Positions 30,524 to 38,477 of a stretch of 64,000 nt of DNA are shown piece by piece. The stretch comes from Streptomyces sp. SCSIO 30461. GTDB taxonomy: Bacteria; Actinomycetota; Actinomycetes; Streptomycetales; Streptomycetaceae. Where the stretch lies: assembly GCF_037023745.1 (NCBI RefSeq), contig NZ_CP146101.1, forward strand, positions 1,364,001-1,428,000, given 5' to 3'. Below the pieces are notes generated by a model that worked only from the letters and a program-made list of their open reading frames with translations, was not told the DNA's origin and searched no databases. Position 1 is the first letter of the stretch, and each line of letters begins with the position of its first letter. The translations under genes and the position numbers were made by a program.

Positions 30524-30815
30524 CCTCCCGATCGGCAGCCTCTTCTCCGAGGTCGGCGGCCTGGACTCCGAAGTCCAGGCCGCCCTCGGGGGCCACGTGT
30601 CCTGGCACGCGGAGACCGACCCGCACGCGGCCCGCGTCCTGACCCGCTACTGGCCCCGGACCCTCAACCTCGGCGACGTCTGCGCCATCGACTGGTCCCA
30701 AGCCCCCGGTGTGTGTCCTGACCGCTGGATTCCTTTGCCAGGACCTCTCGACCGCAGGCCCCCGCACCGGACTCGCCACCGGCCCCCGCGGTACGGCACT
30801 TGGCTCGGGGACGGA
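30510..30815 (+). pseudogene. Relic of a cytosine-C5 DNA methyltransferase
   Basis: The start (PIGSLFSEVGGLDSEVQAAL, SWHAETDPHAARVL, YWPRTLNLGD) is the SAM-binding region of a C5 methyltransferase. After about 30708 the homology shifts into another frame, which reads LTAGFLCQDLSTAGPRTGLA. That block is the catalytic loop, but with Leu where the family has Pro of the PCQ motif. It then ends at the excisionase gene. A frameshift, a mutated catalytic loop and loss of about two thirds of the enzyme make it non-functional. Confidence 0.8.
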
Positions 30816-30817
30816 CG

Positions 30818-31198
30818 ATGACACCTTCCCCCACACCCACCGGCCCGATCACAACCCCCGGCGACCCGCTTGACGTAGTGCCCGAGGCGGAGCGTCCATG
30901 GTCCACGCCCGGTCCGGCAACCGACACCCAGCCGAGCCCCACCCCGCCCACCACCGTCGCCCGGAAAGGAAAAGGAAGAGGCGGGCGCCCACGCTCCACC
31001 CCGGACCGTGGACGTTCCACCCCGGACAGAAGTGATCGGCTGCTGACCGTGGAAGAGGCCGCGGCGTGGCTCAGGGTCAGTAAGGCCACCGTCAGGAACA
31101 AGTACCGCCTGTGGGGCATCAAACCCCAGAAGGTCGGACGCCTCCTGCGGTTCCGCGAGCGCGACATCACCCGCTATCTCGACGAGCACTACGGCTGA
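30818..31198 (+). CDS. xis: Excisionase-like HTH protein
   Basis: A 126-aa protein. A Pro/Thr-rich N-terminus is followed by a MerR/Xis-type helix-turn-helix (LLTVEEAAAWLRVSKATVRN, LWGIKPQKVGRLLRF) and ends YLDEHYG. Such proteins direct the integrase towards excision by bending the attachment DNA. It lies 39 bases before the integrase gene in the same direction, the usual xis-int pair of actinomycete integrative elements. Confidence 0.8.
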   Translation: MTPSPTPTGPITTPGDPLDVVPEAERPWSTPGPATDTQPSPTPPTTVARKGKGRGGRPRSTPDRGRSTPDRSDRLLTVEEAAAWLRVSKATVRNKYRLWGIKPQKVGRLLRFRERDITRYLDEHYG

Positions 31199-31237
31199 CG
31201 CGAGTCCACGTCGGCCCGCGAGGAGGACCAGAGACCG

Positions 31238-32473
31238 GTGGCCACCGTCTACCAGCGCTGCAAGAGCGACAAACGCAACAGCAACTACCCCTGTACGAAG
31301 GACCGCTGCGGTCATCCATGGACCGTCCGCTACCGCGAACCCGGCACCGCACGGACCGAACGCCAGCCGAGCTTCGAGAAGAAGACGCAGGCCGAGGCTT
31401 TCGCCGCACGCCTGGACCGCGACAAGTACGAGGGCTTCTACCTCGACCCCAAACGCGGCGACATCCCCCTGCACGAGTACGCCACCGACTGGCTGGCCCG
31501 CCAGGTCATCGCCGACGGCACCTACCGCAACTACGAGAGCTTTCTCCGCATCCACCTCGTCCCCGCCCTGGGAGAAAAGACGGTCATCGGCGTCCAGGCC
31601 AAGGACGTCGAGACCTTCGTGGCCACCGTCAGCCGGAAACTCGCACCCAGCACGGTCCGCGACCGTATGAAGATGGTGACCAGCATCTTCAAGGCGGCGA
31701 TCAAGGAGAAGCGACGCCCCGACGACCCCACCGACGGAATCAAGCTGCCTCGCGCCGGAGCCCACAGGGTCGACGAGGACGAGATCCCCACCCTTCATGA
31801 GGTGGACCTCATCGCCAAACAGGTCTCCCCCCAGTACCGGCTCACGATCTACCTCCAGGCCGGTGCCGGCCTGCGCATCAGCGAGACCCTCGCCTTCTCC
31901 GCCGAATGCCACCGGGACGGCTTCGTCCGGGTCCGCCGACAGGTCAGCTCCAAGGCCCACCGCGATGACTGTGCCACCCGGTTCATCCCGCTCAAGCACC
32001 GCACCGAGGGCGAGTACCGCGATATCCCCACCCCCGCCTTCCTCGCCGACGAGATCAACGTCCATCTGCGCGAGTGGGGCACCGTGACCGCAGGTGACGT
32101 CGAGACCTTCTTTGCCCCTCGTGAGCGAGGTAAAGGCACCATGCCCACCGCGACCACATACGCCTACCACTTCCGCAAAGCCCTCAAGGAAGCGGGCATC
32201 GTCAAGCCCGACGGCAGCCCGAAGTACACGCCCCACGGTCTGCGGCACTTCTTCGCCTCCACAGCCCTGGCCCACGGCATCCCGATCCACGAGGTATCCC
32301 GCTGGCTAGGGCACCGCTCGATCAAGACCACCGTCGACGTGTACGGCCACCTCATCCCCGCTTCATGGGACCGCTGCCGAATGATCATGCAGAACGCCCT
32401 GCGGCCGGACGCCCCTCCGGTCACGAGCCCCGGCGCTGTGCGGGCCCCCGGCAACCCCGCGGATCCAGTGTGA
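31238..32473 (+). CDS. int: Tyrosine integrase 1
   Basis: A 411-aa site-specific recombinase with all catalytic residues: Arg213 (GLRISET), His333 and Arg336 (HGLRHFF), His359 (LGHRSIKTT) and Tyr369 (VDVYGHL). The N-terminal part has the SAM-like core-binding domain. Residues 1-60 contain CTKDRCGHPWTVRYREPG, the arm-binding region with two Cys and a His that could bind zinc. It is read towards a probable attachment site about 30-120 bases after its stop. It would integrate and excise the conjugative element to its left. Confidence 0.9.
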   Translation: MATVYQRCKSDKRNSNYPCTKDRCGHPWTVRYREPGTARTERQPSFEKKTQAEAFAARLDRDKYEGFYLDPKRGDIPLHEYATDWLARQVIADGTYRNYESFLRIHLVPALGEKTVIGVQAKDVETFVATVSRKLAPSTVRDRMKMVTSIFKAAIKEKRRPDDPTDGIKLPRAGAHRVDEDEIPTLHEVDLIAKQVSPQYRLTIYLQAGAGLRISETLAFSAECHRDGFVRVRRQVSSKAHRDDCATRFIPLKHRTEGEYRDIPTPAFLADEINVHLREWGTVTAGDVETFFAPRERGKGTMPTATTYAYHFRKALKEAGIVKPDGSPKYTPHGLRHFFASTALAHGIPIHEVSRWLGHRSIKTTVDVYGHLIPASWDRCRMIMQNALRPDAPPVTSPGAVRAPGNPADPV

Positions 32474-32500
32474 GGCGGGGTCTCGGGCCCACCGTTTCCC

Positions 32501-32522
32501 GCGGCTGGATCCTGGCTGGATG
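32501..32522 (+). repeat. Candidate integrase arm-type repeat
   Basis: Two direct copies of GGCTGGAT spaced by 3 bases, directly after integrase 1. The 21-base block is repeated with changes only in the 3-base spacer at 50766-50786, and the unit occurs twice more at 50831-50856. Arm-binding sites of tyrosine integrases often look like this. Confidence 0.5.
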
Positions 32523-32543
32523 CGCTCCGATTTCCCGGCGTTT

Positions 32544-32591
32544 CCGCAGGTCAAAACCCTGCGCCCGGCGTTCCGCTTCAACGTCTAATAC
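32544..32591 (+). repeat. Candidate attachment site, left copy
   Basis: CCGCAGGTCA, then 17 variable bases, then TTCCGCTTCAACGTCTA. The same two blocks with the same spacing recur at 48707-48754 in direct orientation (TTCCGCTTCAATGTATA there). The site lies between the converging integrases 1 and 2, where a shared attachment core is expected. Confidence 0.55.
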
Positions 32592-32696
32592 GTTCGGCGA
32601 AAAGCCGTCTGACCTGCGGCGGAGCGGGTTGGGCGGCCTTTGCTGTCCGCACCGAGTCCGCAGCGTGCTGACTTCGGTCAGCGCGCGGGGGAGTGG

Positions 32697-32798
32697 CTAC
32701 GCCGCTTCGTCGACCTGTGCCTTGGCGTTGGCGGGCTGGTCCGTGTACGCCTTGTCGACGGCGGCCCGGGTCCGCTCCTCGGAGTCGGGCCACAGGTG
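32697..32798 (-). pseudogene. Detached C-terminus of integrase 2
   Basis: On the minus strand this gives 33 residues beginning HLWPDSEERTRAAVDKAY and ending with TAG. This is the usual end of Streptomyces phage-type integrases after the catalytic Tyr (YTHLWPDSEERTR). Integrase 2 (from 38477) lacks exactly this part. Joining 37461 to 32798 gives TAC ACC CAC CTG TGG, an in-frame Tyr-Thr-His-Leu-Trp. The fragment is therefore the cut-off end of integrase 2, displaced by the 4662-bp insertion. Confidence 0.88.
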
Positions 32799-32868
32799 TA
32801 ATGGTGACGTCGGGTATTGGAACTGTCCGAATGCTTCTGTGGTAGCGCAGGGTCTGGGCCAGGGCAGG

Positions 32869-33393
32869 TCAGCGATGCTCGGGCGGCAGCCCTGTGTCAG
32901 CGAAGTCGGCGACGGCCTGCTGAAGCTGTTTGAGGAAGTCGATCAGGTTGGCGGCGATCAATTCGAAGTCGTCGAACCAAGACGCGCTGGTGGACCGATG
33001 GACCGCCCCACTCGGGTCGACGGCAAGGAGGTTGCCTCCGCCATCGCTTCCGAACACGATGCCAGCAACGTGATCTGCAACGTGCACGGAGCCGTACTCG
33101 GCGAGATCGTTGAGCACGTGGTCGGGTGAGTGGATGAAGTGCCCGTTGTCGATGTCGGGCAGGGCTGCCTCGGAGATCGTGTCGTAGAAGGAGATCAAGG
33201 TGGGTGCGGCTGCGGGGTGCTCCTTGAGCTGTGCGGCTGCTGATCGGCTGTCGGCATTTGCCAGGATGATCTCGTTGTCACCAGGCGGGTAGCCGTAGGT
33301 GTCCTCGAAAGCGCCGAGCACACGCTGAAGGGACTTGGTGATCTGGTGCTGCCAGACAACGAGCCAGTCCGCGTCGAGCGAGGAAGCCTGCAT
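32869..33393 (-). CDS. SMI1/KNR4 (SUKH)-like protein
   Basis: A 174-aa protein. The block HVAGIVFGSDGGGNLLAVDP, followed by AVHRSTSASWFDDFELIA, is the signature of the SUKH superfamily, most of whose bacterial members are immunity proteins against nuclease toxins. It is the last gene of the recombinase operon and the only passenger of the transposon; it starts 9 bases after the large recombinase-like gene ends. No toxin is encoded with it, so it may act as an orphan antidote. Confidence 0.65.
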   Translation of the reverse strand: MQASSLDADWLVVWQHQITKSLQRVLGAFEDTYGYPPGDNEIILANADSRSAAAQLKEHPAAAPTLISFYDTISEAALPDIDNGHFIHSPDHVLNDLAEYGSVHVADHVAGIVFGSDGGGNLLAVDPSGAVHRSTSASWFDDFELIAANLIDFLKQLQQAVADFADTGLPPEHR

Positions 33394-33402
33394 GTGGATC
33401 TC

Positions 33403-35838
33403 CTATTCGGTGGCTTCTGCCAGCCGCGAGGTTCGGTTGCTGGGGCGTCGGATGACTTCGGCGGCGTAGGTGGTCCAGTCGCCCGCGGAGAGCCGTTGCC
33501 AGGCGACGGCGACGTCGGTGTGGATGCCGAGGGTGCGGGCGAGGATCGCGGCGGGGATCTCGGTGGCGAGCTGGAAGAGAGCGGTGCTGCGGGCCTGGTT
33601 GGGGCGGATGCCGAGGTTGTTCAGTCGCTGCGTCAGCTGTGTGGTGCTGATCGGCCGTCCGGGCTGGCCGCCGGGGAAGAGCCATGGAGACGGCGCCAGG
33701 GCGCCGATGGTCGCGTGCCCCTTGCGGTTCGCGACGACGGTGCGGGCCAGCTGGGCGACGGGCTCGGGGAGCTGGACGGGTGCGTCGCCGAGGTGGAGCC
33801 GTACTTCCTGAGCGCTGATCGCGACGTCCTCGGTGGTCAACCGGTGGATCGCCGACGGCCCTTGGGCATAGAGGAGGAGAAGCAGTCCTGCGAGGCGGTC
33901 TTCGGGCTTGAGGGTGTGGTCGTGCAGGAGTCGGCGTGCGACGTTCCAGCGCTGTTCGTCGTCGAGTGGCTGGGTGGGGCCGTTCCAGCGGACGGCGGGG
34001 ACGTGGACGGTGGTGAGCTTGTTGGCGCGGGCCCAGCGGATGAAGTGTCCGGCCGTCCGGCGGTAGGTGGCCAAGTCGTCGGTGAGCCACCGGTCGAGGT
34101 CGGCCCGCTGACAGGTCTCCAGGGTGAGGTCGTGAGCCGTCAGCCAGTTCTGGAAGGCGACGGCCGCGTGGGTGCGTTGACGTGCGGATATGAACTGCTG
34201 TGGGGTAAGTGGGCGGCCGTTGTTGCGTCGGCGAAGCCGCCGGACCAGGTGCCAGATCGTGTACCGGTGCAGGACTTTGCGTTGTTCGGGGTCCTGCTGG
34301 GATGCGAGGAGGCTGGTGAGGAAGCGTTCGAGGCGGACCATGTACTCGTCCCGCTCGGGCAGGGCACCGACTCCGACGAGGACTTGGCGGAGGTGGGCGA
34401 GGGGTGGGCTGTCGGGCAGTTCGTCAAGGGCCCCGTGGGTCAGGGCTCGTCGGCCGGCTGCGAGGTCGGCCAGGACCGGGGCGACGGACGGCTTGTTTAG
34501 CCACCGCCTGGCAGTGGTGGGGTGTTCGGTGGTGGCGATGTTGTGCCGGAGGGCTTCGAGGCCGGTGTGAAGGGCATCGGACGGATGGCCCAGCAACTCG
34601 TTGAGGCGCCGGTTGATGAGGCAACGGGCGCACTGGCCGGGATGCGGGTAGTCGGAGTCGGTGCAGGTGGGGCAGGTGTGCCAGACCTCAGGGGCGGTGC
34701 AGTCCGCGCAAAGGGGCTGGTCGAGGGTGCCGGAGACGATCGACGCGATGCCTCCGCAGACCGAGCACGAGGCTGAACGGCGCTGACAGTCCGGGCACCA
34801 CGGTCGGCCCGTGGTCCGGGAGGTGCCGCAGGGCTTCTCCTCGTCGCAGATGCTGCAAGTCACGATGGGCAGGGAAGGGCAGCTTGAGCAGAGCGGACCG
34901 TCTGGCGTGCGGGTGTTCACGACCTTTCGTCGGCCGCAGTTGATGCAGGTCTCCAGATTCGCCGGGTCGTTGACCAGGCAGTTCGGACACAGCGGTCGGC
35001 CATGGTCGTCTCGGGTGGCCGGCTCCCGGCGGGCCCCGCACCCCGAGCACTCCTCGACGCGGGAGTGGGAGATGCAGGTGCGGCAGACCCGCTGTCCATC
35101 CAGGGGCTTGTCGATGCGTACGACTCTGTGGCAGCCGGGGCAGGACGGCCGGACGATCCCGGCGACGCCGGCCTTGTGCAGCAGGTCGAGCAACCGGAGG
35201 ATCGCGCGGTGGGGTGCGAGGTGGCCGTCCCCGGTCAGCAGGGCGGGGTTGGATTCCAGGGCCCAGGCGAGTTTCTGCTGGTAGGAAGGGCGGGGTGCCG
35301 ATCGGCGGACCGCGTCAGCGATCACTTCCTGCCCGGCCTGCGGGTCCAGTCCGGCGACCAGGGCGCCGATCACCGCGATGGGGTCGCGTCCGTCGGTGTC
35401 CGGGCACTTGCCGCATCGTGGCCGCCCGGCCCGGTCGCGTGACGCGACTCGGCGGGTGTTTCCACAGGCAGCGCAGGGCTCGGGCTGTGGTCCGCAGTTC
35501 CAGCAGTACCAGTCCTGGCCGCGGCGCTGGAGGGTTCGCATTTCTCTGCTGCATTCGGCGCAACACGGCGGCGAGACCGCTTGGGCTCCGGCCTCACGCA
35601 GGGCGATGAGCAGGTCGCCGACGGCCCTGGGAGCAGGCGAGCGGCCGTCGCTCAGCACGCTGGGATGCTCGGCCAGATGCGCCGCGAGGCGGCGTGACTT
35701 CGCGCGGCCGCCCGCGACGCCGGTGACCACGGCGCGGATCCGGTCAGGCTCCAGTCGATGTTCGACGGCCGTGACCAGGTCCACGATCAGCCCGATCGGA
35801 TCGGAGAGAGCCCGCTCGGGGTGCCCGGGTGCGGTCAC
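33403..35838 (-). CDS. Zinc-ribbon-rich tyrosine-recombinase-like protein
   Basis: An 811-aa protein. From about residue 90 to 400 it carries roughly ten CxxC pairs (CCAEC, CWNC, CAAC, CGKC, CPGC, CRTC, CSGC, CPNC, CINC, CSICDEE, CADC, CPTC), enough for about five zinc ribbons. The last 330 residues follow the tyrosine recombinase fold. However, the first catalytic Arg is missing (YAQGPSAIHRL instead of GLR-type), the HxxR box reads NQARSTAL, and only Arg and a late Tyr (GDWTTYAAEV) remain. It is probably an accessory DNA-binding partner like TnpB of Tn554. The GTG start overlaps the HTH gene by 4 bp. Confidence 0.7.
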   Translation of the reverse strand: MTAPGHPERALSDPIGLIVDLVTAVEHRLEPDRIRAVVTGVAGGRAKSRRLAAHLAEHPSVLSDGRSPAPRAVGDLLIALREAGAQAVSPPCCAECSREMRTLQRRGQDWYCWNCGPQPEPCAACGNTRRVASRDRAGRPRCGKCPDTDGRDPIAVIGALVAGLDPQAGQEVIADAVRRSAPRPSYQQKLAWALESNPALLTGDGHLAPHRAILRLLDLLHKAGVAGIVRPSCPGCHRVVRIDKPLDGQRVCRTCISHSRVEECSGCGARREPATRDDHGRPLCPNCLVNDPANLETCINCGRRKVVNTRTPDGPLCSSCPSLPIVTCSICDEEKPCGTSRTTGRPWCPDCQRRSASCSVCGGIASIVSGTLDQPLCADCTAPEVWHTCPTCTDSDYPHPGQCARCLINRRLNELLGHPSDALHTGLEALRHNIATTEHPTTARRWLNKPSVAPVLADLAAGRRALTHGALDELPDSPPLAHLRQVLVGVGALPERDEYMVRLERFLTSLLASQQDPEQRKVLHRYTIWHLVRRLRRRNNGRPLTPQQFISARQRTHAAVAFQNWLTAHDLTLETCQRADLDRWLTDDLATYRRTAGHFIRWARANKLTTVHVPAVRWNGPTQPLDDEQRWNVARRLLHDHTLKPEDRLAGLLLLLYAQGPSAIHRLTTEDVAISAQEVRLHLGDAPVQLPEPVAQLARTVVANRKGHATIGALAPSPWLFPGGQPGRPISTTQLTQRLNNLGIRPNQARSTALFQLATEIPAAILARTLGIHTDVAVAWQRLSAGDWTTYAAEVIRRPSNRTSRLAEATE

Positions 35839-36176
35839 GACCGTTCGACACCGCGGATGCGGGCCCGCTTGGGCCGCAGGTCACCGACACCGGTCTCGGC
35901 GCCAACAGCCTTCTTTGTCTGGGCGGTTGATCCGGCTCCTGCTGCGGCCACGGGCTCGATGAGGTCGTCCATGGTGCAGTCGAGGATGTCGAGCAGGGCC
36001 ATGAGGATCTTCAGGCTGAGCCGCTCGGGGCGCTCGACGACGAGCCGGTAGACCTGGCTGGATGACAGGGTAATGCCGCGTTCGTCCAGCAGCGGGATCA
36101 GGTCGGTGGTGGAGAAGAGCCCGCGGTCGGCCATGACCTTGCGCAGGTGCCATTGGTAGTCGAGCTTCGCGGCCAT
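35835..36176 (-). CDS. Small XRE-type HTH protein of recombinase operon
   Basis: A 113-aa protein. Residues 5-75 are a Cro/XRE helix-turn-helix with the YozG-like layout (HLRKVMADRGLFSTTDLIPL, SSSQVYRLVVERPERLSL, LMALLDILDCTMDDLIEP). The basic tail ends PKRARIRGVERS. It overlaps both recombinase genes (1 bp and 4 bp), so the three are made together. In Tn554 the third small protein (TnpC) sets orientation; here an HTH protein sits in the middle and may repress the operon or dress the ends. Confidence 0.75.
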   Translation of the reverse strand: MAAKLDYQWHLRKVMADRGLFSTTDLIPLLDERGITLSSSQVYRLVVERPERLSLKILMALLDILDCTMDDLIEPVAAAGAGSTAQTKKAVGAETGVGDLRPKRARIRGVERS

Positions 36177-37297
36177 CAGCGGTCCTTGTCTGCGGAGATC
36201 GAGGCGAGTGCGGGAGCAAGTGCCTTGTGGAGCATGGTGTTCATGAAGTCGTCGCTGACGTGGGTGTAGATAGCGGTGGAGCTGTCATTCTCGTGACCGA
36301 CTTGCTGCTGCAGAAACCGCCGGTCAACCCCGTCCTCCGTGAGGTGGGTGACGTAGGCGTGGCGAGCGGAGTGGACGGTCAGCTCCCTCGGGAGCTTCAG
36401 GCCGTCGCGGTAGGCGACGAACCGGGCGTTGATCTCCGCCGGCTTGACCCGGCCGCCCCGCTCGGTCACCCACAACGCGGGGTGGTCCTCGCAGCCGAAC
36501 CGGGGACGTACGTTCTCCACGTAGTCGGCGACCGCCTCCACCGCCCAGTCCATGACCGACAGCACGTTCCGGCGCCGCGGCGGCTGGCCCTTCTTCGCCT
36601 TGCCGTAGCGGACGTTGAGCGTGCCGTACCGGCCGAACTGCGGAGCCTTCGCATTCCTCCCGAAGTCGACCACATCCAGCTTCGACGTCTCGGTCCGGCG
36701 CAGCCCCCACCCGTAGATGACCTTGAAGAGGGTGGCGTCGCGGTAGGCGGCGAGGGCGCCCTTGCGCTTGGCCCGTACCGCCCGTTCGACCTGGTCATCG
36801 GCGTAATCGAGGAAGCGCTGGATCTCCTCGCGAGTGAACGGCCTCGCCTCGGGGCGGCCCTCGTAGTCGTTGAGGTGGGCGATGGTGTTCCACTCGTGGC
36901 AGATGGCCACCGGGTGAGTGCCGAAGGCGTCCTCGCAGGCCGCCGCCCAGCCGTAACGGCCGTCGATCAAGAACTCGCTGAACAGGCGCAGGCTGCCCTG
37001 GTAGCTGCGGATCGTGGACGGCGCGAGGTGCTTCTCGCTGGTCAGCCACAGCGACCACTCATCCACGTGGCCGGGCGTCCAGGCCCACGGGTATTCGTTG
37101 GTGTACTCCAGAAACCGGCGTATGAGCCGTTCCCGAGGGGTGACTGTGTCCTCGCGGAGCCCGCGGGCGGCCTGCTGGGCCCGCCAGCCCCGCAGCATCG
37201 CCTCGACCATCGCGTCCTGCGGACGCAACTGGGCCACACCGGAGACCAGCTCCAGATGAGCCGCCCCAGCCAGGTCGGCACGTCGCTGAAGACCCAC
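36176..37297 (-). CDS. Tyrosine recombinase of the Tn554-like element
   Basis: A 373-aa recombinase with a full catalytic set: Arg in YGWGLRRTETSKL, HxxR in VHSARHAYVTHL, His in QQQVGHENDSST and Tyr in AIYTHVSDDF. An N-terminal SAM-like domain (RERLIRRFLEYTNEYPW, LAPSTIRSYQGSLRLF) binds the core site. It is first in the operon and begins at GTG 37297, 33 bases after a perfect dyad that may be an operator. It is the likely catalytic subunit for moving the 4.66-kb element. Confidence 0.88.
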   Translation of the reverse strand: MGLQRRADLAGAAHLELVSGVAQLRPQDAMVEAMLRGWRAQQAARGLREDTVTPRERLIRRFLEYTNEYPWAWTPGHVDEWSLWLTSEKHLAPSTIRSYQGSLRLFSEFLIDGRYGWAAACEDAFGTHPVAICHEWNTIAHLNDYEGRPEARPFTREEIQRFLDYADDQVERAVRAKRKGALAAYRDATLFKVIYGWGLRRTETSKLDVVDFGRNAKAPQFGRYGTLNVRYGKAKKGQPPRRRNVLSVMDWAVEAVADYVENVRPRFGCEDHPALWVTERGGRVKPAEINARFVAYRDGLKLPRELTVHSARHAYVTHLTEDGVDRRFLQQQVGHENDSSTAIYTHVSDDFMNTMLHKALAPALASISADKDR

Positions 37298-37329
37298 TTC
37301 CGCCCTCCCTTCCGGAGGGCAAATCTTGC

Positions 37330-37346
37330 ATCAGATGGGATCTGAT
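37330..37346. promoter_or_regulatory. Dyad upstream of recombinase operon
   Basis: ATCAGAT-GGG-ATCTGAT, a perfect 7-bp dyad 33 bases before the GTG of the recombinase gene. In addition TTGCATCAGA (37326-37335) recurs inverted at 37439-37448 near the transposon end. It may be an operator for the HTH protein or a recombinase accessory site. Confidence 0.5.
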
Positions 37347-37361
37347 CTCCAAACTCCCAGC

Positions 37362-38477
37362 TCAGGCGGCCAAGTTGTAGGAGGATGGAGTTCTCGCCGG
37401 ACGCTGTCCTGACCTCGTGACCTGCAGCTTCCCGCCCGTCTGATGCAATTCCCGAGGGTCGGTGTAGATGTTCAGCGTCATGGCCGCGTTGGTGTGGCCG
37501 AGGCGCTCGGAGACTGTCTTCACGGACTCGCCGTGCTTGATCAGCAGGCTGGCGTAGTGGTGCCGGAGGGCATGGGGTCCGGTGCCCTTCGGTATGCCGG
37601 TCTTCGCGCAGGAGGGCCGCCAGGACCCGTCCATGAAGTGCGTGTAGACCACGGGTCCGCCTTGCGGCGCTGTGAAGATCCAGCCCTCGGGCCCATCGGC
37701 GGGGAAGTCCCGCAGATGGGCCTTCATCGCATCCACCGCCATGCGGGGGAGCGGGACCGTGCGGTGCGAGCGAGCGGTCTTGGGCGGGCAGACGTACACG
37801 CCGTGTTTGGCTGTCTGCTGGATTTGCTGCTCGACCGAGACGGTCGCGTGCAGCAGGTCCACGTGCCGGAGCTGGAGGCCGAAGAGCTCGCCTGGGCGGA
37901 GCCCGGTGGCCGCGCCGAGCAGCACGAGGCCCTTGTATCGGGCGGGGATCTCCTCGGACAGCGTCCGCACCTGCTCGACGGCCAGGGGCACGATCTTCTT
38001 CCGTGGCACTGAGGGCAGCTTCGCCTCGGCGCACGGGTTGTGGGGGATCATCCGGTCACGGACGGCCGCCCGGAAGACGGCGTTGACCGTGTTGAAGACC
38101 GTCCGTGAGGTGCTGGCGGCCAGCCCGTGCGTGGTGGTCAGGCTGGTGATCCAGCTCTGTACGTCGCCGGGCTTGATGGCGCCGAGCGCCCGCTTCTCCC
38201 AGGCCGGGTAGACGTAGCAGCGCAGGTGCTGGGCCACGGCCTTGGCCGTGGAAGGCCGGTGCGGCTGGATGGCCCGCCATTCCTCCGCGTACTCCCTGAA
38301 GGGCTTCTTCGCAGACCGCGGGTCGACGTACTGGCCGGTGACCAGGCTGGCCGTGACCTCGTCGATCCATCGCTGGGCGTCGATCTTGCGGTCGAAGTGG
38401 CGCGCGTGCTCCTTGCCGTCGAGGTCACGGTAGCGGGCACGCCATTTGCCGTTGGGGCGCTTCTGGATGTTGGCCAA
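37362..38477 (-). pseudogene. Integrase 2, split after the catalytic tyrosine
   Basis: The open frame encodes 371 aa, of which the first 339 (down to 37461) are genuine integrase: NIQKRPNGKWRARYRDLDG at the start, then GLRPGELFGL, HALRHHYASLL, RLGHTNAAMTLNIYT with the catalytic Tyr. The last 32 residues (PRELHQTGGKL...) come from the inserted transposon. The native 33-residue end is at 32697-32798. The chimera keeps all catalytic residues but has lost the C-terminal segment that normally tunes the active site, so activity is doubtful. Confidence 0.85.

Follow-up and report, generated by a model that had tools for sequence, protein, structure and literature searches.

The closest described system is the transposon Tsy. 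As reported for ZooTsy by Faure et al. (2023) (PMC10293859), it carries the genes YRec, HTH and TnsF, where TnsF combines zinc fingers with a tyrosine recombinase (YR) domain; Tsy inserts at the Walker B codons of comM, and its circular intermediate joins both ends. According to the same report, ZooTsy needs no more than 12 bp of flank, 135 bp of end1 and 20 bp of end2; the catalysis of TnsF is essential and the GIY-YIG gene is not. For Tn7, TnsD is described to bind the DNA that encodes the active site of GlmS, where variation is mainly found at third codon positions (PMC2918618). Tn554 encodes two catalytic YRs (TnpA, TnpB) plus TnpC and shows a 6-bp footprint, which is also known from SEs and derives from the donor's flank (PMC10214605). 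Finally, Van Houdt (2012) reports that in actinobacteria a short YR is paired with a long one (Famint36/41 etc.) and calls these pairs Tn554-related (PMC3414803).

Within the window, i.e., the whole stretch of 64,000 nt that was analysed, an insert of 4,662 bp (37460-32799, minus strand) splits the gene of a YR integrase one codon past its catalytic Tyr. The left flank ends with AAC ATC TAC ACC at 37461 (minus strand; flank terminus AACATCTACACC), and the right flank picks up at 32798 with CACCTGTGGCCC (CAC CTG TGG). We compared the 5' part of the integrase with 199 genomes of the genus, 10 of which match at E<=1e-80. One of these (L124) is the window's own copy, while the others (L125-L133) are nine relatives with 61-98% identity that are uninterrupted at the junction. 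With the slash marking the junction, TACACC/CACCTGTGG is found in eight of the nine, and the most distant relative (L131) reads TACAGC/CACCTGTTC. Since all nine are continuous at this site, the junctions of the window copy are exact, i.e., no base was gained or lost and no target is duplicated. This agrees with the preliminary description, which had proposed a precise split after the catalytic tyrosine without target duplication, had located the missing end of the integrase at 32798-32697 and had suggested the comparison with empty sites: the nine relatives fit its junction, and rejoining both parts gives TACACC/CACCTG. It had further pointed out that the removed length is a multiple of three. 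This holds for the window copy (4,662 bp) but not as a general rule, as element lengths modulo 3 are 0, 1 and 2 in 23, 24 and 13 of 60 elements, respectively.

Table 1. Features of the element and of the interrupted integrase gene (positions refer to the window).
Feature	Positions	Strand	Basis
Target gene, 5' part (tyrosine integrase, ends ..NIYT)	37461..38477	-	PF00589 E 5.5e-22; nine uninterrupted relatives
Whole element, 4,662 bp	32799..37460	-	junctions read; empty site in nine relatives; relatives' contigs starting at left terminus
Left end (end1), 135 bp	37326..37460	-	TGCATCAGACGGG-type motif at +14, inverted copy at +122; conserved terminus
Terminal block TCGGGAATTG	37446..37455	-	terminus conserved across relatives
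Canonical tyrosine recombinase (YRec/TnpA), 373 aa	36176..37297	-	PF00589 E 2.7e-19
Small HTH protein, 113 aa	35835..36176	-	HTH_26, PF13443 E 1.3e-14
Large TnsF-like protein, 811 aa; proposed target selector	33403..35838	-	zinc-ribbon cysteines, model, fold matches, Mantel tests
Cargo gene, weakly SUKH-like, 174 aa	32869..33393	-	SMI1_KNR4 E 0.016, sub-threshold
Right end (end2), conserved 36 bp GCATTCGGACAGTTCCAATACCCGACGTCACCATTA	32799..32834	-	terminus alignment of relatives
Inverted partner TCGGGTATTG of left block	32810..32819	+	sequence; terminus alignment
Target gene, 3' part (HLWPDSEERTR..., stop at 32697)	32697..32798	-	sequence read; relatives' empty site

The profile search recovers the three overlapping genes that had been listed before, i.e., a YR, an HTH protein and a large protein. 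Each of the catalytic residues of the recombinase (R200, H309, R312, H335, Y344) is retained by 91-97 of the 97 relatives in the alignment, which includes partial sequences, and the gene order YRec - HTH - TnsF-like is annotated likewise in three related loci (L134, L135, L140). The 811-aa protein (model pLDDT 82) shows eight conserved zinc ribbons at residues 93-406, followed at residues 515-799 by a degenerate YR fold that matches the folds of XerA, XerH and Cre. Its box-I Arg is not conserved (R in 12/76 at the column aligned by eye), Trp780 is placed near the Tyr position and Tyr791 is invariant (75/75). Compared to sequences of solved structures, the protein yields weak matches only, namely 17 at E<=1 with GATA-3 being the best (E 0.039). 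Compared to the former label of a large recombinase-like protein, a TnsF-like target selector with zinc ribbons and a degenerate YR fold describes the protein better. With regard to the fourth gene, formerly called SUKH-like, the gene itself stands, while its match to SMI1_KNR4 is weak and sub-threshold (E 0.016; 16.2 bits compared to a cut-off of 25.4), such that SUKH membership is not supported. No GIY-YIG gene is seen in the window's element. Downstream of the large gene, the region up to the right end (32835-33402) constitutes a variable cargo slot, which spans 11-43 bp in a number of relatives and holds one or more differing genes in others.

The element resembles Tsy in the order YRec - HTH - TnsF, in a large protein that has zinc fingers at its N-terminus and is YR-like at its C-terminus, and in its insertion within the codons of a conserved catalytic motif. 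The left end, as delimited by its inverted motif pair, is also about as long as the 135-bp end1 of ZooTsy. On the other hand, the target of Tsy is the Walker B motif of comM and here mostly the Tyr codon of YR genes plus a few other genes; furthermore, TnsF catalysis is reported as essential there, while it is probably lost here, judging from the protein's sequence. Based on gene order and domain plan, we consider it very likely that the element is Tsy-like. Zinc fingers combined with an inactivated YR domain that is used as target selector are also described for the TnsF of Tn6022, which in contrast works for a Tn7-type transposase and targets comM (PMC10293859). As a close parallel, TnsD of Tn7 is likewise a zinc-finger selector acting on DNA that codes for a conserved enzyme active site; Tn7, however, uses a Tn7-type transposase and inserts downstream of an intact glmS, i.e., it addresses one gene and not a diverse superfamily (PMC2918618). 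GInt islands share several YR-type genes with the element and 6/11 analysed GInts reside in ssb homologs, but they are described with four gin genes and imperfect direct repeats of 10-17 nt (PMC5385486). The Famint36/41 pairs place a short YR beside a YR-like protein of 611-828 aa on actinobacterial plasmids, whereas the report (PMC3414803), as far as it treats these pairs, gives no insertion targets, zinc ribbons or selector role for them. Such pairs possibly include relatives of the family studied here; their plasmids are absent among the matches listed, which cover the best 60 of 193 and 60 of 182 plasmid records.

A scan of genome contigs yielded 115 places that encode a relative of the recombinase, of which we retained the best 80. 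At E<=1e-170, the recombinase is found in 24/392 genomes of the genus and in 5/394 of the class, the own genome being counted in both. At E<=1e-30, it is present in 193 plasmid records, 24 of which show at least 60% identity, and it also occurs in one viral contig; at E<=1e-20, none of 50,697 phage records gave a match. The single copy found in a viral contig (L168:5827) splits an integrase after TLDVYA.

The left terminus RACCCTCGGGAATTGCATCAGACGGGCGA is conserved among the aligned upstream regions. The other side shows a conserved 36-bp terminus ending with CACCATTA, or with CGCCAGAG and similar sequences in some lineages. Several short contigs of relatives have the left terminus as their exact starting point, which would be expected if the elements are repeated. 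Imperfect inverted blocks near both ends (TCGGGAATTG and TCGGGTATTG), which had been noticed before, do exist and are located inside the termini that are conserved across relatives. The left-end TGCATCAGACGGG pair is found at +14 and, inverted, at +121/+122 in 6/6 elements (the window's and five relatives, <=2 mismatches). The spacing of this pair (37327-37447) is nearly constant although the intervening DNA varies, and the pair ends at +134.

One genome (G090) contains three copies without a single difference over 4,959 bp, which reside in three different YR genes with the same terminal bases. The same is observed for two copies in another genome (G158), which differ by 1 mismatch in 4,891 bp and again occupy different YR genes with the same terminal bases. 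Because near-identical copies in different targets keep constant ends, no 6-bp core of the donor travels along, and we rejected such a core. The GGTGTA that had been reported at both junctions is present in this copy but elsewhere does not hold, i.e., it is a coincidence of the element's TTA beside a target CACC; by eye, no GGTGTA/TACACC junction repeat was seen in the other copies with both flanks. In one locus (L049), the left end directly abuts the right end of another copy, i.e., both are arranged in tandem, and a second locus (L040) looks similar by eye. Constant termini together with abutting tandem copies would fit a circle that joins both ends without extra bases. A subgroup of four elements (L052, L059, L061, L086) carries AAGGCTCGG left ends; by eye, its junction appears displaced by about one codon further downstream, i.e., about two codons after the Tyr.

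The in-frame tail that follows the left junction (DPRELHQTG..., stop ending at 37362) was considered as a substitute C-terminus of the integrase and rejected as unsupported. There is little codon periodicity within its codons 11-32, where the three codon positions account for 686/530/729 differences; of the codon differences, 422 are synonymous and 1,162 non-synonymous (156 pairs, which are not independent). Over 15 codons, the left end is open in 73/77, 73/77 and 68/77 cases for the frames 0, 1 and 2, respectively, such that frame 0 does not exceed frame 1.

For the target analysis, 78 dereplicated insertion sites with left flank were available (the window's included), 68 of which have a left frame of at least 40 codons. 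Among these readable left flanks, 55/68 are in-frame YR genes (iterated YR HMM, E<1e-3) and 13/68 are not by the HMM; PF00589 matches 47/68 at E<=0.01. All 55 YR sites show TAY (TAC or TAT) at positions -6..-4. This codon is the next-to-last one of the flank and aligns with a near-invariant Tyr (Y239 of the first alignment row); in two sites counted as YR (L012, L018), the TAY used is by eye the Tyr adjoining the catalytic one. On the right side, all 43 YR sites with at least 48 bases of right flank stay in frame 0 without a stop. That is, the aligned junctions show that the window copy and its relatives sit after the codon following TAY, which mostly encodes the catalytic Tyr of a YR, and do so in one orientation. 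The targeting of integrase genes at their Tyr codon, proposed earlier for this copy along with an extraction of the relatives' flanks, is thus general and the flank comparison largely bears it out (55/68 YR, TAY in 55/55). For the own genome (8.05 Mb), we find 25 PF00589 matches at E<=0.001; since there are only 25, we estimate by our own arithmetic a chance of about 1e-6 per insertion to hit a YR Tyr codon in the same sense by accident.

The targets are diverse, i.e., the 68 flanks share 12-37% identity with the window's target, and the YR genes among them comprise small integrases, long recombinases and kin of the element's own recombinase (L122, L123, L140 and, by eye, L051). In one case (L140:5781-13897), the element is found within the first gene, a recombinase, of a related recombinase-HTH-large module; the family therefore attacks its own kin. 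Among 15 further loci, 6 repeat known sites (one masked N) and 9 are new, namely 5 YR sites (HMM), one ISL3-like and one RNA-ligase-like site by eye and 2 without clear type. TAY at -6 is present in 8/9 of the new sites.

The 23/78 sites not counted as YR were assigned by Pfam/HMM and partly by eye. Genes of the 2H (2'-5') RNA-ligase type are hit in L053, L099 and L100 (Pfam) and similarly, by eye, in L098; DNA-ligase genes in L070 and L075 (two Pfam matches, L070 individually); and an ISL3-type transposase gene in L038 (Pfam), with L050 being alike by eye. L040 and L049 sit at the right end of another element copy, and the target of L074 is relaxase-like by eye. A further set is YR by eye yet not counted (L051, L009, L069 with E 0.086, and the displaced L052, L059, L061 and L086), such that L041 (N) as well as L033, L055, L063 and L064 without clear gene type remain. 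Beyond these sites, a 56%-identical sister group (L136:6803, L106:1306; two Streptomyces loci) is inserted after ..LLW in a gene that is membrane-protein-like by eye. Distant relatives with about 52% recombinase identity (L138, L139) are located at umuC on Arthrobacter and Brevibacterium plasmids in opposite sense; both parts of the split umuC are present in L139, and the 3' part only is seen in L138.

Next to the targets, we related the divergence of each gene to that of the flanks using Mantel tests on 49/78 sites, for which both flanks as well as the complete set of three genes were available; L040, L049, L061, L052, L059 and L033 are left out in addition to the incomplete sites. Given protein flanks, the large protein shows r 0.418 (p 0.0005; partial 0.404 with the other two genes removed), where it has to be considered that lineages differ in host and available targets and that shared ancestry is not fully removed. 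The respective values are r 0.08 (p 0.13; partial -0.15) for the recombinase and, weakly, r 0.158 (p 0.04; partial 0.149) for the HTH protein. When using DNA flanks, the contrast between the genes is smaller, i.e., r 0.292 (p 0.0005; partial 0.256) for the large protein, r 0.141 (p 0.012; partial -0.05) for the recombinase and r 0.18 (p 0.01) for the HTH protein. For the large protein, we also obtain r 0.335 (p 0.001) for YR targets alone (n=42) and r 0.387 (p 0.0025) for one element per recombinase group (n=25). Along its sequence, windows of 60 residues give r 0.29-0.46 for 211-510 and 0.37-0.47 for 661-810, compared to 0.23-0.24 for 511-600 and 0.15-0.23 for 1-240, i.e., the numerically lowest stretch, which covers the first two zinc ribbons.

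Different target types are found for clusters whose recombinases are 82-88% identical and whose large proteins differ. For instance, a Gly codon precedes TAY in 11/12 readable sites of large-protein cluster 13 vs 2/12 YR sites of cluster 2 (by eye), and the recombinases of both are 88% identical; the two sites of large-protein cluster 12 are ISL3-type genes. Because its divergence, and not that of the recombinase, tracks the target type, the 811-aa protein is likely the target selector.

At the level of single bases, we compared the 55 targeted with 56 unoccupied YR sites; among the latter, the element's own recombinase family was reduced from 20 sites to 6. After correction for 54 tests, no position differs significantly, the lowest p being 0.001 at -3; a matrix separating both sets reaches an AUC of 0.55. 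Outside of YR genes, the pooled matrix yields about 19 matches per Mb if the median score of the targets is taken as threshold, while the lower quartile gives about 408 and the upper quartile 1. The respective counts are 17, 363 and 1 within a background of 1.78 million positions (80 loci, L007-L086, YR regions masked). Among the 17, at least two are unmasked YR codons and four are repeats of one HTH motif of the element. Without masking, the count is about 31 per Mb, which is no valid background since the window contributes only two hits and both are YR Tyr codons, i.e., 32347 in the second integrase and 36263 in the element's own recombinase. Given these background match rates, the pooled matrix is informative but limited, and it does not suffice for the lower-scoring half of the targets. 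This leaves two options, i.e., longer motifs that are specific to each lineage, or a recognition that does not proceed base by base.

Taken together, the element is very likely a small Tsy-like YR transposon of soil bacteria that has the catalytic Tyr codon of YR genes as its main target, with sequence comparisons suggesting both its mobility and a targeting via the large protein. In the proposed mechanism, the 811-aa protein would bind the DNA encoding the conserved active site by means of its zinc ribbons and YR-like C-terminus, and would bring the circular element and the 373-aa recombinase to this site. The recombinase would exchange strands at one fixed point. The circle would join ..CCATTA directly to RACCC.. 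such that no donor bases travel along; an end-to-end circle of this kind would thus result from strand exchange at one fixed point. The HTH protein could act as a partner or regulator. The outcome would be a spreading element that finds its main niche in recombinase genes, namely those of plasmids, integrative elements and related transposons.

The preliminary description had instead placed the element in the Tn554 family with a 6-bp core. Tn554 and SEs are indeed YR transposons with target specificity, and the element likewise encodes a YR, shows no target duplication (as for Tn554; PMC10214605) and has imperfect inverted ends; in addition, short and long YR pairs of actinobacteria have been described as 'Tn554-related' (PMC3414803). 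Nevertheless, one canonical YR and an HTH_26 protein are present here compared to two YRs with catalytic motifs and TnpC/Srap there, the zinc-ribbon array speaks against this family, the 6-bp donor footprint known from Tn554 and SEs is absent among near-identical copies, and the TACACC repeat is seen by eye in no other copy with both flanks. We thus drop the assignment to Tn554 as very improbable. It is less improbable, though still unlikely, that the 373-aa recombinase itself reads the target and that the large protein is a structural partner drifting with the lineage. YRs normally bind their own core sites, TAY at -6 and the fixed junction would suggest a direct reading, and the recombinase does show a weak correlation with the DNA flanks (r 0.141, p 0.012). 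The protein flanks, however, are in favour of the large protein, which predicts the target type while the recombinase does not (r 0.08, partial -0.15), and 82-88% identical recombinases are found in clusters with different target types.

Insertion could also be nearly random among TAY codons, such that copies survive only within expendable recombinase genes. This would be in accordance with a shared base-level motif of moderate specificity and with mobile-element genes being expendable. Still, 55/68 readable insertions are located in YR genes, of which an 8-Mb genome provides only 25 PF00589 matches, while other expendable genes are far more common and each side clade uses one other enzyme; we regard this scenario as highly implausible. 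Even less credit, i.e., next to none, is given to a spread by homologous recombination between flanking recombinase genes. L116/L118 and some others do reside in a common target gene family, but identical copies are found in unrelated YR genes (L119-L121 of G090) and the aligned targets show 12-37% identity to the first.

We thus read the element as a new Tsy-like variant that would parasitise the recombinases of other mobile elements. In the literature searched at abstract level, no description of a Tyr-codon target was found, and a later report may exist. Homing on the active-site codon of competitors' recombinases would amount to hyperparasitism, i.e., with each insertion, a competing plasmid, integrative element or transposon would have its recombinase gene split and would carry the inserted copy along as a hitchhiker. 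More tentatively, and with the odds rather against it, the large proteins may form an evolvable family of zinc-ribbon selectors that read the DNA of enzyme active sites, with the main lineages on the YR Tyr codon and sisters being retargeted. If so, the YR superfamily would provide the element's competitors and its own kin as targets; sisters would have moved to motifs of RNA ligase, DNA ligase, ISL3 transposase and perhaps UmuC; and the array of eight ribbons would hold a readable, perhaps reprogrammable, code of DNA recognition. Natural selector/target pairs are numerous within the family, and among these the recombinase is nearly constant while selector and target vary. It is thus suited to ask how proteins recognise DNA that is conserved only via the encoded protein, and represents a possible source of site-specific insertion tools.

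Next to the element, a second integrase gene (31238-32473, plus strand) and an HTH_17 excisionase-like gene (30800-32473 region, plus strand) are arranged tail-to-tail with the split integrase (32697-38477, minus strand). The region 30800-38477 may hold two adjacent integrative elements.
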